This document shows, piece by piece, positions 17,981-22,476 of a DNA stretch of 36,571 nt. Each line of letters opens with the position of its first letter. Position 1 is the stretch's first letter. Where the stretch lies: positions 1 to 36,571 of the forward strand of contig NZ_JADGIA010000026.1 in NCBI RefSeq assembly GCF_019683635.1, given 5' to 3'. The notes under the pieces were generated by a model, which saw only the letters and a list, made by a program, of their open reading frames with translations, was not told the DNA's origin and did not search any database. The translations under genes were made by a program, and so were the position numbers. This stretch comes from Thermogemmatispora sp. (lineage in GTDB: Bacteria > Chloroflexota > Ktedonobacteria > Ktedonobacterales > Ktedonobacteraceae).

Positions 17981-20329
17981 CTACTGAGCAATCTGAATGC
18001 TGCCATCCTGTTGCAGCACCAGGATCGCTGGTGCGGCGCGTGTGCTGGTAACCAGCACATTATCCCACAAGCGCAGGGCGATAGGGCCACTCACGCCGTT
18101 GAAGTTCTGGCTACTGATGCGCTGCACGAGCTGGGCAGACGTGGGGAAGCTGGGAGAAGCCTGGGCCTGACCCTGGCTGCTCTGGGCCTGTTGCCCTGAC
18201 TGTTGGTTCTGGCCGAGGCTTAAGGCCACCATCTCGACCGCATCGCCGAAGAGCAGCGCACCCTGGTCCAGGGCTGCGGCCCCACTACAGAAGCTCCCTG
18301 GCGAGGCAAAGAGCGTGCAGAATGCGGCGTAGAACTGCTTGGGCCAGGGGCTATCTCCGCTGGGAGGACGGGCGGCACTACTGACCGTCACATAGATGCG
18401 TGGCAGTGTGAGCTGGTTTTGACGCACCCAGGGCACCAGCTTCTGGATGGCCGTCGGCTGGACGAACTCGCCACCGATCAGCAGAATCGGCTGCTGATCA
18501 CGTGGAAGTTGGGCGATTGCCTCCGCCAGCGTCATGACATCGTTAGAGAGCAGCGGAGCAAAGATTAGGTCAGGACGGGGCTGGGCCTGCAGAGCATCCT
18601 TGAGGCCGGCCAGCAAATCATCGCGCGAGGCCTGGGGGCGTCCATTGGCATCGAGCAGGCCGCTAGCCACAGCGGTCTCCTGAGCCACGATGCGCGTATG
18701 CCGGTGAGCGGTAAAGTACTGGCTAAAATAGCGTGCTGAGCTACTGGAGGAAGGATTGCTCGGGTCATAGAAGATTGCCACGTTGCGAGCACCCAGCTCA
18801 TTGTAGGCGTAATCGGCTCCGGCCCGGCTCTGCGCCGAATCGTCCGCCGAGAAGCGAATAAAAGCGAAGCCGGGGGTGCAATGGCGGTAGAGCGAGGTCT
18901 GAGAGAGCAAGTCAATGATGAAGAGACCCGAAGCGGTTGGGGCGAGCAGAGGGATACCGGCGCGGCAGAGCACTGGCAGCACCACCTCTGTCAAGCGACT
19001 TGGCGCCAGTCCCAGCACGGCCAGGATGGGCGGACGTCCGGTGACCTGCAGCCCGAAGTCACCAAAGTTCCCCTTCGCGTTTAGCGTCGCCACAGCATTG
19101 GCGATCTGCAGCGCACCCTCCTCCTCCCCTGTTGTGTTCGCAAGCACCAGGTACAGCAAAGGTGCGCCAGGAATCTTCATCTGCGCGCTATTGTACTGCT
19201 CCTGACTGATATAGGCTCCCACCAGCTCCTGGGTATAGGCGGCGTAGAGAATATGGCGATCGGTACCGCCCTGGGGGTCGGCCACGCCGGGACCGCTATC
19301 GAAGCTCACCACAATGATGCCATAGGGGTGGCCTGAGAGGCGCACGCGCAGGTCCTCCCGGTAGATGGCTGCCTCGGCGCTGTTGCAACCCGTCGTATCG
19401 CTGATCCCCACCGCTGCCGAGAGCAGGGCGTCGGCCTTCTTGCTATTGCCCGCTTGCATCGCCTGGGCAGCCTGCCGCTTATCCTGGTAGCCTGCGGCGT
19501 TACAGGCATCGAAGACCTTCAGCCCATCGCTCAGCCCGATACCATCCGGTGTCGGCAGCAGATGCGTATTGGGGGGATGGTAGTAGCGAGCGTCATCCCA
19601 GCGGATCGCCAGGAATGCGGTCAGAGAGGTCAGCAATAAAATCAGGATCAAGGTCCCGAAGGCTAAAGCGCGCGGAGAGATCGGGACCAGCCCGCCGCGG
19701 AAAAAGCCGCTCATCTGCCACCACATCACGCGGAACGGGTCGCGCACCGGGCGGCGCCGATACTTGCGATTGGCCTTTGCCTCCTGGCGAAAGAGGTCTA
19801 GCAATACCAGACAGCCGGTGTCGCAGACAAGCAAATGGGCTTGAACCTCTGGATAGAGCAAAGCCACATTCTGCCCGCTATCCATCGCCTCGGCGTACTC
19901 GGGCAGCAGTTGACGACACTGCTGGCAATCGATCAGGCCATCGCCAGCCGAGGGAGGTGCAATGCGGATTGTCTGCTCGGGTGTCTCGGGTCCGGGCGGG
20001 GGAGAGGAGAAACCTGACCCGGCAGGTGGCTGCGAGATGGGGGGAGCCACCTGGAAAGGCTCGGCACTAGCCAGGGCCGGCGCGGCCACCGCCGCCTCAT
20101 TGCCTTCGGAGGCGGCCAGAGGCTCTGCAGGAGAGAGCCGCCGTACCTTCTTTTTTTTGCGCTTGGGTCCGCTCGCTGCCGAGGCTTCCTTGCAACGTGG
20201 GCAAGAGGCCATATGCTGTCGGGCTGCCTCGACAGCCTCCTCGGGCACAGCCTCGGGGTCCTGCTCGTACTCAGCCAGGACAGAGACAGCGAAAGCACAT
20301 GCTGGCGGCAGCAATTCGTCCGTTGCCAT
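17981..20329 (-). CDS. Transmembrane receptor-like protein: anti-sigma-type zinc fingers plus substrate-binding-protein-like domain
   Basis: A 782-residue protein with an architecture I do not know as a named family. Residues 1-46 hold a ZAS-type pattern C11...H39-x3-C43-x2-C46. A Lys/Arg patch and a Pro/Ala linker follow. Residues 135-173 hold a second one: C135-x2-C138...H165-x3-C169-x3-C173. A single membrane helix (about 221-242, LAFGTLILILLLTSLTAFLAI) separates this cytoplasmic part from an outside part of about 540 residues. The outside part resembles the type-1 periplasmic-binding/LivJ fold (YGIIVVSFDSGPG; PPILAVLGLAPSRLTEVVLPVLCRAGIPLLAPTAS split across two strands; ARNVAIFYDPS; PILLIGGEFV). 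It could sense an amino-acid-like ligand and control a sigma factor, but no sigma gene is adjacent. The ATG at 20329 follows GGAGG by 6 nt, whereas the upstream ATG at 20335 abuts it. It lies 64 nt after ruvA. Confidence 0.8.
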   Translation of the reverse strand: MATDELLPPACAFAVSVLAEYEQDPEAVPEEAVEAARQHMASCPRCKEASAASGPKRKKKKVRRLSPAEPLAASEGNEAAVAAPALASAEPFQVAPPISQPPAGSGFSSPPPGPETPEQTIRIAPPSAGDGLIDCQQCRQLLPEYAEAMDSGQNVALLYPEVQAHLLVCDTGCLVLLDLFRQEAKANRKYRRRPVRDPFRVMWWQMSGFFRGGLVPISPRALAFGTLILILLLTSLTAFLAIRWDDARYYHPPNTHLLPTPDGIGLSDGLKVFDACNAAGYQDKRQAAQAMQAGNSKKADALLSAAVGISDTTGCNSAEAAIYREDLRVRLSGHPYGIIVVSFDSGPGVADPQGGTDRHILYAAYTQELVGAYISQEQYNSAQMKIPGAPLLYLVLANTTGEEEGALQIANAVATLNAKGNFGDFGLQVTGRPPILAVLGLAPSRLTEVVLPVLCRAGIPLLAPTASGLFIIDLLSQTSLYRHCTPGFAFIRFSADDSAQSRAGADYAYNELGARNVAIFYDPSNPSSSSSARYFSQYFTAHRHTRIVAQETAVASGLLDANGRPQASRDDLLAGLKDALQAQPRPDLIFAPLLSNDVMTLAEAIAQLPRDQQPILLIGGEFVQPTAIQKLVPWVRQNQLTLPRIYVTVSSAARPPSGDSPWPKQFYAAFCTLFASPGSFCSGAAALDQGALLFGDAVEMVALSLGQNQQSGQQAQSSQGQAQASPSFPTSAQLVQRISSQNFNGVSGPIALRLWDNVLVTSTRAAPAILVLQQDGSIQIAQ

Positions 20330-20339
20330 CAGCATCCTC

Positions 20340-20359
20340 CAGAAAATAGGCGTTTTCTG
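20340..20359 (-). other. Hairpin abutting the receptor ribosome binding site
   Basis: On the minus strand CAGAAAA and TTTTCTG form a 7-bp stem with a 6-nt loop immediately 5' of GGAGG. It may tune translation of the receptor relative to ruvA, or stop part of the ruv transcript. The short A/T-rich stem is weak. Confidence 0.35.
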
Positions 20360-20393: not shown

Positions 20394-20978
20394 TCAGAGT
20401 TCGCGGGCGAGGGAGCGCAGGGCCAGGGTGATTTGTTCTTCCAGCGTCAGGTTCTGGTCCTGGGGCAGGCGAGCGATGGCCGCTTGGGCGGCAGCGGGAC
20501 TGTAGCCCAAACCGACCAGGGCTTCCAGCACCTCGGAGCGCCGGATACCACCGGCGGAGGCTGTGCCTGGAGCGATTGCCGGCACCTTGCCCTTCAGCTC
20601 CAGCACCAGACGACCGGCGAGCTTCTTGCCCACGCCGGGGGCGCGGGCCAATAGCTGCACATCCTCTTGAGCGATTGCACGGTAGAAGGTGGGTGCATCG
20701 AGCACCGAGAGCAGGGCCAGGGCTACCTTGGGGCCTACACCGCTGACGCCGATCAACAGCTCGAACATATCGCGCTCGGCCTCCTCGGCGAAGCCATAGA
20801 GCGCCAGGCCGTCCTCACGGACGTGCAGGTGAGTATAGAGCGAGACCTCACTGCCGGGCGTACTGAAGCGATTGCGTGTCGAGGCTGGCACAAAGACACG
20901 CAGCCCAAAGCCTCCCACGCGGATGATCAGATGGTCCTCGCGCTGTGCCTCAAGAATGCCATGAATGCTCGCAATCAT
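20394..20978 (-). CDS. ruvA: Holliday junction DNA helicase subunit RuvA
   Basis: A 194-residue DNA-binding subunit that tetramerises on Holliday junctions and loads the RuvB motor for branch migration. The N-terminal OB fold (MIASIHGILEAQ ... IIRVGGFGLRVFVP) is followed by two helix-hairpin-helix motifs (LIGVSGVGPKVALALLS and LARAPGVGKKLAGRLVLELK). The C-terminal UBA-like RuvB-contact domain comes last (EVLEALVGLGYSPAAAQAAI). The length is normal. It follows ruvC by 91 nt in the yebC-ruvC-ruvA order common in bacteria. ruvB is not in the window. Confidence 0.95.
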   Translation of the reverse strand: MIASIHGILEAQREDHLIIRVGGFGLRVFVPASTRNRFSTPGSEVSLYTHLHVREDGLALYGFAEEAERDMFELLIGVSGVGPKVALALLSVLDAPTFYRAIAQEDVQLLARAPGVGKKLAGRLVLELKGKVPAIAPGTASAGGIRRSEVLEALVGLGYSPAAAQAAIARLPQDQNLTLEEQITLALRSLAREL

Positions 20979-21069: not shown

Positions 21070-21621
21070 TTACCATCCTCCTGATTCTGAGGAGTGGAAG
21101 TCCTCTGAAAGGAGGCTGGCCCTGATCAGGTGGGAGCTATAGAGGTGACAGATGGCAATAGCTGCCGCATCCGCTGCATCATCGGGGCGAGGAATGGAGC
21201 GCAGATTGAGCAAAATGCGCACCATCTCCCCGACCTGCGCCTTGTCTGCGCTGCCGTAGCCGGTGACTGCCTGCTTCACCTGGCGTGGTGTATACTCTGC
21301 AATGGGCAATCCGTGGTTCGCCAGCGCCAGCATGGCCACACCACGCGCCTGGCCGACCATCATCGCCGTGCGGGCGTTTTTGGCGAAAAAAAGCTCCTCC
21401 ATCGCCGCCTCCGCCGGCTGATGAATGGTGACGATTTCACCCAGACGCTCATAGATCTGCTGGAGGCGCTGGGGTAAGGGCATGCCGGCGGGCGTGGTAA
21501 TGACATCGCAGGCGAGCAAACTAAGCCTGTCGCCCTGAGCTGCTACGACGGCATATCCCACAATTGCCGTTCCTGGATCGATGCCCAGGGCGACCCGCCG
21601 CGGCGGAGCCTTCTGGGTCAT
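21070..21621 (-). CDS. ruvC: Holliday junction resolvase RuvC
   Basis: A 183-residue RNase H-fold endonuclease that cuts Holliday junctions symmetrically. The catalytic acidic residues are visible: D15 in ALGIDPGTAIVGYAVV, the Glu pair in AAMEELFFAKNARTAM, and the C-terminal Asp residues in PDDAADAAAIAICH. The block YTPRQVKQAVTGYGSADKAQV is the usual DNA-contact region. The start ATG is at 21621, 93 nt after the yebC stop, with a GGAAGG-type ribosome binding site region upstream. It lies in the yebC-ruvC-ruvA cluster. Confidence 0.95.
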   Translation of the reverse strand: MTQKAPPRRVALGIDPGTAIVGYAVVAAQGDRLSLLACDVITTPAGMPLPQRLQQIYERLGEIVTIHQPAEAAMEELFFAKNARTAMMVGQARGVAMLALANHGLPIAEYTPRQVKQAVTGYGSADKAQVGEMVRILLNLRSIPRPDDAADAAAIAICHLYSSHLIRASLLSEDFHSSESGGW

Positions 21622-21714: not shown

Positions 21715-22476
21715 CTACTCATAGGAGGCCACCAGTTCGTCAGGAATATCGGCATTGGAATAGACGTTCTGGACGTCGTCCAGGTCCTCCAGCTTCTCGA
21801 CCAGCCGCATGAGCTGATGAGCAGTTTTGGCATCGTGCAGTTCGACCCGTGTCTTGGGGACCATTGTGCTCTCCGCTTTCAGGACCTTGTAATTCTTCTC
21901 CTGGAGGGCCTGACGCACCTTCTCCAGATTGGCCGGGGTCGTGTAGATCGTCAGGATCTGGTCCTCCTCTGATGACGTTTCCGCATCTTCGGCGCCCAGA
22001 TCGATGGCCTCCAGTGAGACCTCATCGGGATCGTGCCCATCGAGAGCTAGCTCAATGACCCCGCGCGGCTCAAAAATCCAGGAGACGCTACCCGTCTCGC
22101 CCAGGCTGCCGCCGTTGCGGCTGAAGGCGTTGCGAATCTCTGCGACCGTGCGATTGCGGTTTTCGGTCATCGCCTCGATGAGGATGGCCGTCCCGCCGGG
22201 GCCATAGCCCTCATAGGTCACTTCTTCAAGGTTGCTGCCCTCTGCGCCGCCAAGCGCCCGCTTGATGGTGCGCTCGATGTTCTCCATCGGCATATTGGCA
22301 TCGCGCGCCCGCTGAATGGCCATGCGCAGACGCGGGTTGGCGGCAGGGTCCCCGCTTCCTCCTTCGCGCACAGCAACTGCGATCTCGCGCCCGAGGCGCG
22401 TGAAAAGTTGCCCCCTGCGCGCATCGTTCACACTTTTAGCTCGGCGAATCTGTGCCCATTTCGAATGGCCTGACAT
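21715..22476 (-). CDS. yebC: YebC/PmpR family protein (TACO1-like)
   Basis: A 253-residue protein with the invariant start MSGHSKWAQIRRAK, followed by FTRLGREIAVAVREGG, NPRLRMAIQRARDANMP and YEGYGPGGTAILIEAMTENRNR. Family members have been described as transcription regulators and, more recently, as ribosome-associated factors that ease translation of proline stretches, so the exact role is open. The length is normal. The C-terminus ends AD-IPDELVASYE after a usual third domain. It is the first gene of the yebC-ruvC-ruvA unit; a GGGGGC-type site precedes the ATG. Confidence 0.95.
   Translation of the reverse strand: MSGHSKWAQIRRAKSVNDARRGQLFTRLGREIAVAVREGGSGDPAANPRLRMAIQRARDANMPMENIERTIKRALGGAEGSNLEEVTYEGYGPGGTAILIEAMTENRNRTVAEIRNAFSRNGGSLGETGSVSWIFEPRGVIELALDGHDPDEVSLEAIDLGAEDAETSSEEDQILTIYTTPANLEKVRQALQEKNYKVLKAESTMVPKTRVELHDAKTAHQLMRLVEKLEDLDDVQNVYSNADIPDELVASYE

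Follow-up and report, generated by a model that had tools for sequence, protein, structure and literature searches.

The window (the whole stretch of DNA that was analysed, 36,571 nt) carries a gene for a membrane receptor on its minus strand, directly behind yebC, ruvC, and ruvA. Close relatives, at 93-98% identity, are from species of Thermogemmatispora, a heat-loving soil bacterium (class Ktedonobacteria, Chloroflexota). The gene is under constraint, with dN/dS of 0.04-0.06 within this genus, and the plus-strand frame over the same stretch has many stops. The features of the locus are as follows:

17981..20329, minus strand: coding sequence of the receptor, with two Cys/His fingers and a binding-protein-like domain (782 amino acids; the frame is open from 20335; orthologues)
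20336..20340, minus strand: Shine-Dalgarno-like GGAGG, 6 nt before the ATG at 20329 and touching the ATG at 20335
20394..20978, minus strand: ruvA (Pfam), which precedes the receptor gene in all orthologues with enough contig to show it
21070..21621, minus strand: ruvC (Pfam and synteny)
21715..22476, minus strand: yebC/TACO1 family gene (Pfam and synteny)

The frame opens with the ATG at 20335, which would give a protein of 784 amino acids (P0001). We number residues by P0001; an earlier sequence-only reading of this DNA used numbers that are lower by two. The start that it gave, 20329, and its numbering are right: this is the likely start (782 amino acids) because of the spacing of the GGAGG and because orthologues from two other genera begin at the equivalent ATG. 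The distance from 20329 to ruvA is 64 nt, as it had said.

Full-length orthologues are present in four genera of the family (one is split across two contig ends), and a fifth genus has a fragment from the C terminus, which lies at the end of a contig. Wherever the contig of an orthologue reaches far enough, the order is yebC-ruvC-ruvA-receptor on one strand, which gives the receptor gene an operon-like position. In the family's other genera in which ruvA was found, the receptor is missing, and the gene after ruvA is thiL-like, acetyltransferase-like, or ABM-like (the first two were named by eye). Behind yebC-ruvC-ruvA, the receptor gene is an addition specific to its lineage. Since the interval between ruvA and the receptor gene contains nothing that resembles a promoter or a terminator, it is plausible that the two are co-transcribed. 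In one genome (G028, L091:4341-6578), ruvA and the thiL-like gene each lie in two frames, as frameshifts or sequencing errors would produce.

The sequence-only reading had noted that no sigma factor gene was in the window, and we saw none in the conserved neighbourhood. The survey of homologues that it proposed, for a conserved neighbouring sigma gene, turned up none beside any two-finger orthologue. Nor is there a transporter gene beside the receptor in the orthologous loci. Genes for the synthesis of branched-chain amino acids and threonine lie 10-20 kb away in the window (identified by eye). We dropped a guess at the ligand from these ilv/leu/thr neighbours, because the same linkage occurs in genera that lack the receptor gene.

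Fingers, membrane helix, and ectodomain

From the N terminus onwards, the protein contains:

20192..20299, minus strand: finger 1 (P0001 C13-H41-C45-C48), a three-helix domain modelled with pLDDT about 80-86; zf-HC2 E=0.032, below cut-off
19940..20170, minus strand: variable linker between the fingers, Lys-rich and then Pro/Ala-rich (P0001 56-132)
19811..19927, minus strand: finger 2 (P0001 C137-x2-C140...H167-x3-C171-x3-C175), a three-helix domain modelled with pLDDT about 73-87
19604..19666, minus strand: predicted membrane helix (P0001 about 224-244), by hydropathy and the positive-inside rule, with basic RKYRRRPVR before it
19325..19552, minus strand: juxtamembrane helical segment common to kinase-type relatives (P0001 262-337), by alignment
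17984..19324, minus strand: type I (LivJ-like) solute-binding-protein ectodomain (P0001 338-784), by Pfam, profiles, and alignment

The Cys and His residues of the cytoplasmic part are exactly C13, H41, C45, C48, C137, C140, H167, C171, and C175. Those on which the sequence-only reading had built its fingers are all there, and none of the nine varies in any orthologue whose sequence extends over it (four genera; 55-65% identity outside the genus, and only 55-58% in the N-terminal part). Within the genus, neither finger shows a non-synonymous change, against synonymous differences per site of 0.05-0.15 (finger 1) and 0.13-0.35 (finger 2), while the intervening linker drifts. No other part of the receptor is as constrained as the fingers, which we predict to bind zinc.

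An AlphaFold2 model of residues 1-222 has two three-helix domains (pLDDT about 73-87) joined by a disordered linker; in these domains helix 1 carries Cys, and H-x3-C lies at the turn between helices 2 and 3. Because the underlying alignment is shallow, we take the model as support rather than proof. The helices of finger 1 span residues 11-25, 32-44, and 46-54. Zinc-binding class I anti-sigma domains (ASDI) have an H-x3-C-x2-C signature (PMC7406223). Finger 1 has this motif across helices 2 and 3, along with an upstream Cys. Finger 2 is H-x3-C-x3-C with two Cys at its start, and so departs from the strict ZAS/ASDI motif.

The sequence-only reading described both fingers as anti-sigma-type. The ligand pattern and the helical layout agree with this, but finger 2 is not H-x3-C-x2-C and neither finger reaches the zf-HC2 cut-off. 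The profile search that had been suggested gave Pfam zf-HC2 as the best match for both fingers, yet at 14.8 bits for finger 1, 14.3 for finger 2, and 17.8 in an orthologue, against a curated cut-off of 22.2. Finger 2 in an orthologue has E=0.0037, which is also under the cut-off. In HMM-HMM comparisons with the fingers of sigma-linked relatives (see below), for which the alignments are too shallow, finger 1 matched with 93% probability over just 24 columns and finger 2 did not match. The finger region had no match to solved anti-sigma proteins by sequence or by fold: Foldseek returned nothing below E=5.8 for the finger model, which is largely disordered. We found no free-standing or otherwise-fused copy of the finger region at E<=1e-5 in 47 genomes of the class or in a 301-genome sample of the phylum, nor any copy at this threshold outside the family; there were three weak matches (E 0.002-0.009).

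As had been proposed, there is one membrane helix: a single clear one was found (P0001 about 226-244). Because basic RKYRRRPVR precedes this helix (positive-inside rule), the fingers are predicted to lie inside, and charge and hydropathy together place the ectodomain outside. About 540 residues follow the helix. Their proposed likeness to binding proteins is borne out by a Peripla_BP_6 match above the cut-off (E=7.8e-9; 36.1-38.3 bits versus 31.7 for Pfam) and by a family profile that includes the relatives, which matches solved LivJ-type proteins at E=1.2e-26 (3td9) and 1.8e-24 over about 340 columns. The two-finger clade's own profile matches solved binding proteins weakly (E=0.0011). Full-length AlphaFold2 gave an unusable model (mean pLDDT 36).

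Six extracellular Cys are invariant (residues 278, 317, 457, 486, 673, and 683; window 18279-19504, in the juxtamembrane segment and the ectodomain), and it is plausible that they form disulphides. Both these Cys and the clade's own inserts are restricted to the two-finger clade and are absent in other relatives. The positions that we take to face the ligand in LivJ seem to be partly kept in an HMM alignment (S446, S/T at 469 in most, and E623).

The ectodomain family and its sigma factors

The ectodomain recurs across Ktedonobacteria with varied cytoplasmic parts (some checked with Pfam). These include protein kinases, TIR domains, NB-ARC and AAA/TPR NTPases, zinc ribbons, TPR, several membrane helices, and a single anti-sigma-like finger. 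In this class, the ectodomain is a reusable module. The sequence-only reading knew of no named family with this order of parts. That seems right for the combination, but the plan of an effector inside and this ectodomain outside is widespread in Ktedonobacteria. A TIR domain, a membrane helix, and a binding-protein-like ectodomain are joined at L048:8424-10673, L071:8427-10796, and L054:9026-11392 (two of the three are in Thermogemmatispora), and AAA/TPR and HTH/NB-ARC NTPases are fused to the same ectodomain at L061:8795-12664 and L062:9125-12256. T. carboxidivorans has three tandem genes for kinase-like receptors with a binding-protein part (L046:4433-13484).

Seven of these genes, in the same bacterial family as the two-finger receptor, encode a single finger, and were chosen by the finger motif before their neighbours were read. 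Each locus has an ECF sigma gene and the gene for a receptor with three predicted membrane helices and a LivJ-like ectodomain:

L044:11470-14182
L045:8986-11752
L049:8359-11101
L050:7798-10525
L051:7651-10348
L052:7811-10835
L053:8934-11704

In all seven, the receptor gene shares 6-61 nt with the 3' end of the sigma gene, on the same strand; of the 35 other ectodomain genes, one lies no more than 1 kb from a sigma gene, at a distance of 427 nt. These counts describe only our set of 42 genes, because it was picked to favour non-kinase forms (among its members are the two-finger orthologues, fragments, and a distantly related secreted protein). Three representative sigma genes exceed the Pfam cut-offs for sigma regions 2 and 4, and the sigma-linked fingers score 19.5-21.9 bits against zf-HC2, just under the cut-off of 22.2. 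As every single-finger relative overlaps the gene of an ECF sigma, there are very probably sigma/anti-sigma pairs that include a binding-protein ectodomain, and these seven loci are likely to be such pairs with a small-molecule sensor.

Trees of the ectodomain place the two-finger clade (SH-aLRT 99-100) apart from the sigma-linked clade (94-96), and do not put the two-finger protein inside the latter. An arrangement of the two-finger and single-finger clades as sisters was not rejected (p-AU 0.19). The stem of the two-finger clade is very long (2.5-2.8). As the trees keep the clades separate, the case for an anti-sigma reading of the two-finger protein is made by its finger pattern and by analogy rather than by a neighbouring gene.

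Class I anti-sigma genes usually, but not universally, adjoin the gene for their cognate ECF sigma factor; in the complex, helix 1 of the ASDI binds sigma4 and helix 4 binds sigma2. By a simple motif test, more than 10 ECF-size sigma genes of Thermogemmatispora have no zinc-finger gene beside them, so an unlinked sigma partner is possible. We compared the sigma region 2 genes of three genomes that have the receptor gene with those of two that lack it, a comparison with little power, and among these five genomes found no unpaired sigma that is co-distributed with the receptor. The only sigma that is common to the three and absent from the two was rejected as a candidate: adjacent to it is its own soluble zinc-finger anti-sigma, which is above the zf-HC2 cut-off. 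A pair of an ECF sigma gene and a gene for a 120-amino-acid soluble zinc-finger anti-sigma is present in three genera (L112:1285-2462; also L146 and L176), and the gene after the pair encodes a mechanosensitive-channel-like membrane protein (by eye). The idea of a one-protein sensor that controls an inside partner thus gains by analogy with the seven single-finger relatives, but no sigma partner was found for the two-finger protein itself.

Proposed mechanism, alternatives, and known systems

We propose that the protein is a ligand-gated receptor of anti-sigma type that acts on an unlinked partner, and we would give this reading an even chance of being correct. Outside, the LivJ-like two-lobed domain would bind a small ligand, probably an amino-acid-like one; the partner held inside by the two ZAS-type zinc fingers would most likely be an ECF sigma whose gene lies at another locus. 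Ligand would close the lobes, and the movement would travel by way of the juxtamembrane helices and the lone membrane helix to alter the hold on the partner. We infer both the identity of the partner and the direction of the signal. Several observations favour this reading: the finger ligands are invariant, with no non-synonymous finger change within the genus; the finger layout resembles the zinc motif of class I anti-sigma factors (PMC7406223); the ectodomain profile matches LivJ-type proteins; sister genes that encode this ectodomain with one finger are found alongside a sigma gene; a sister arrangement with these genes is not rejected by the trees; and sigma genes that could be free partners are present. 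Against it stand the absence of a sigma gene beside any orthologue, the lone co-distributed sigma that already has an anti-sigma of its own, zf-HC2 scores below the cut-off, the departure of finger 2 from the motif, the lack of a match to solved anti-sigma proteins, and the placement of the clade, on its long stem, outside the sigma-linked one. A broader proposal is that this is a plug-and-play family whose finger-bearing branches ligand-gate sigma factors, with the two-finger protein as a trans-acting anti-sigma receptor that is co-expressed with ruvCA. This broader proposal may be right, but we lean slightly against it.

The main rival keeps the same kind of receptor and has the fingers hold something other than a sigma factor, such as a transcription regulator, a kinase, or a DNA-repair-linked protein. 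We consider this rather unlikely, although the fixed gene order without a promoter- or terminator-like site after ruvA would fit it, as would the lack of a sigma partner by either neighbourhood or co-distribution and the many unrelated effectors that the ectodomain family employs. Against it, the finger pattern and the helical layout resemble anti-sigma domains, and the sole other relatives found with ZAS fingers are sigma-linked. As for a link to DNA repair, ruvCA occurs alone, with no receptor gene, in most of the family's genera, so the receptor is not needed for recombination.

Two other readings concern the ectodomain. If small-molecule binding had been lost, the ectodomain, with its Cys-bearing inserts, might sense a protein, the redox state, or envelope stress, with the fingers following. 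The long stem branch, the clade-specific inserts and Cys, and the weak match of the clade's profile to solved binding proteins all point this way, but the ligand-facing positions look partly kept, and we think such a loss improbable. It is very improbable that the protein is tethered to the membrane to bind nutrients for an ABC transporter, with fingers that serve as its structural anchor. The LivJ-like fold and the amino acid synthesis genes in the window could suggest this, but orthologous loci have no transporter gene beside the receptor, the ilv/thr linkage extends to genera without it, and it is the fingers that are most constrained.

Overall, the receptor architecture is well supported, and the anti-sigma action of the two-finger protein is evenly balanced between true and false. 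The signal to which many anti-sigma factors respond has yet to be identified. A solute-binding-protein ectodomain would hand an ECF sigma pathway a defined small-molecule input that can be tested. The exchange of effectors (kinase, TIR, NTPase, or anti-sigma) behind a common ectodomain would form a natural series for Venus-flytrap signalling through a single membrane helix. The family, in which one ectodomain serves many effectors and one branch is clearly sigma-linked, is as interesting as the two-finger gene. In the open-licence literature that we searched, we found no report of an anti-sigma factor with a LivJ-like ectodomain.

Among known proteins, class I anti-sigma factors (ASDI; RsrA, ChrR, and RsiW) share with finger 1 a small helical zinc-type domain with H-x3-C-x2-C, and they are often membrane-bound with an extra sensor domain (PMC7406223). 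Unlike them, our protein has two fingers, both of which score under the zf-HC2 cut-off and the second of which is non-canonical, and its gene has no adjacent sigma gene. The single-finger sigma-linked genes encode a homologous LivJ-like ectodomain, also predicted to be outside, and an N-terminal H-x3-C-x2-C finger; they differ in having one finger, three membrane helices, and an overlapping upstream sigma gene, and in forming a separate clade.

The Pkinase-TM-Peripla_BP_6 receptors of Ktedonobacteria (L012 and many others) have the same ectodomain and juxtamembrane segment, with ectodomain matches at E=9e-27 and weaker and about 30-42% identity. Inside, they carry a kinase with a zinc ribbon (Pkinase E=1e-36 in L012), whereas P0001 has no Pkinase match and ZAS-like fingers in that place. 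Finally, by profile, the ectodomain has the fold of LivJ/HAAT-type solute-binding proteins (PF13458; PDB 3td9 and 4gnr), but unlike these proteins it bears Cys-containing inserts and is fused to a membrane helix and a cytoplasmic effector.
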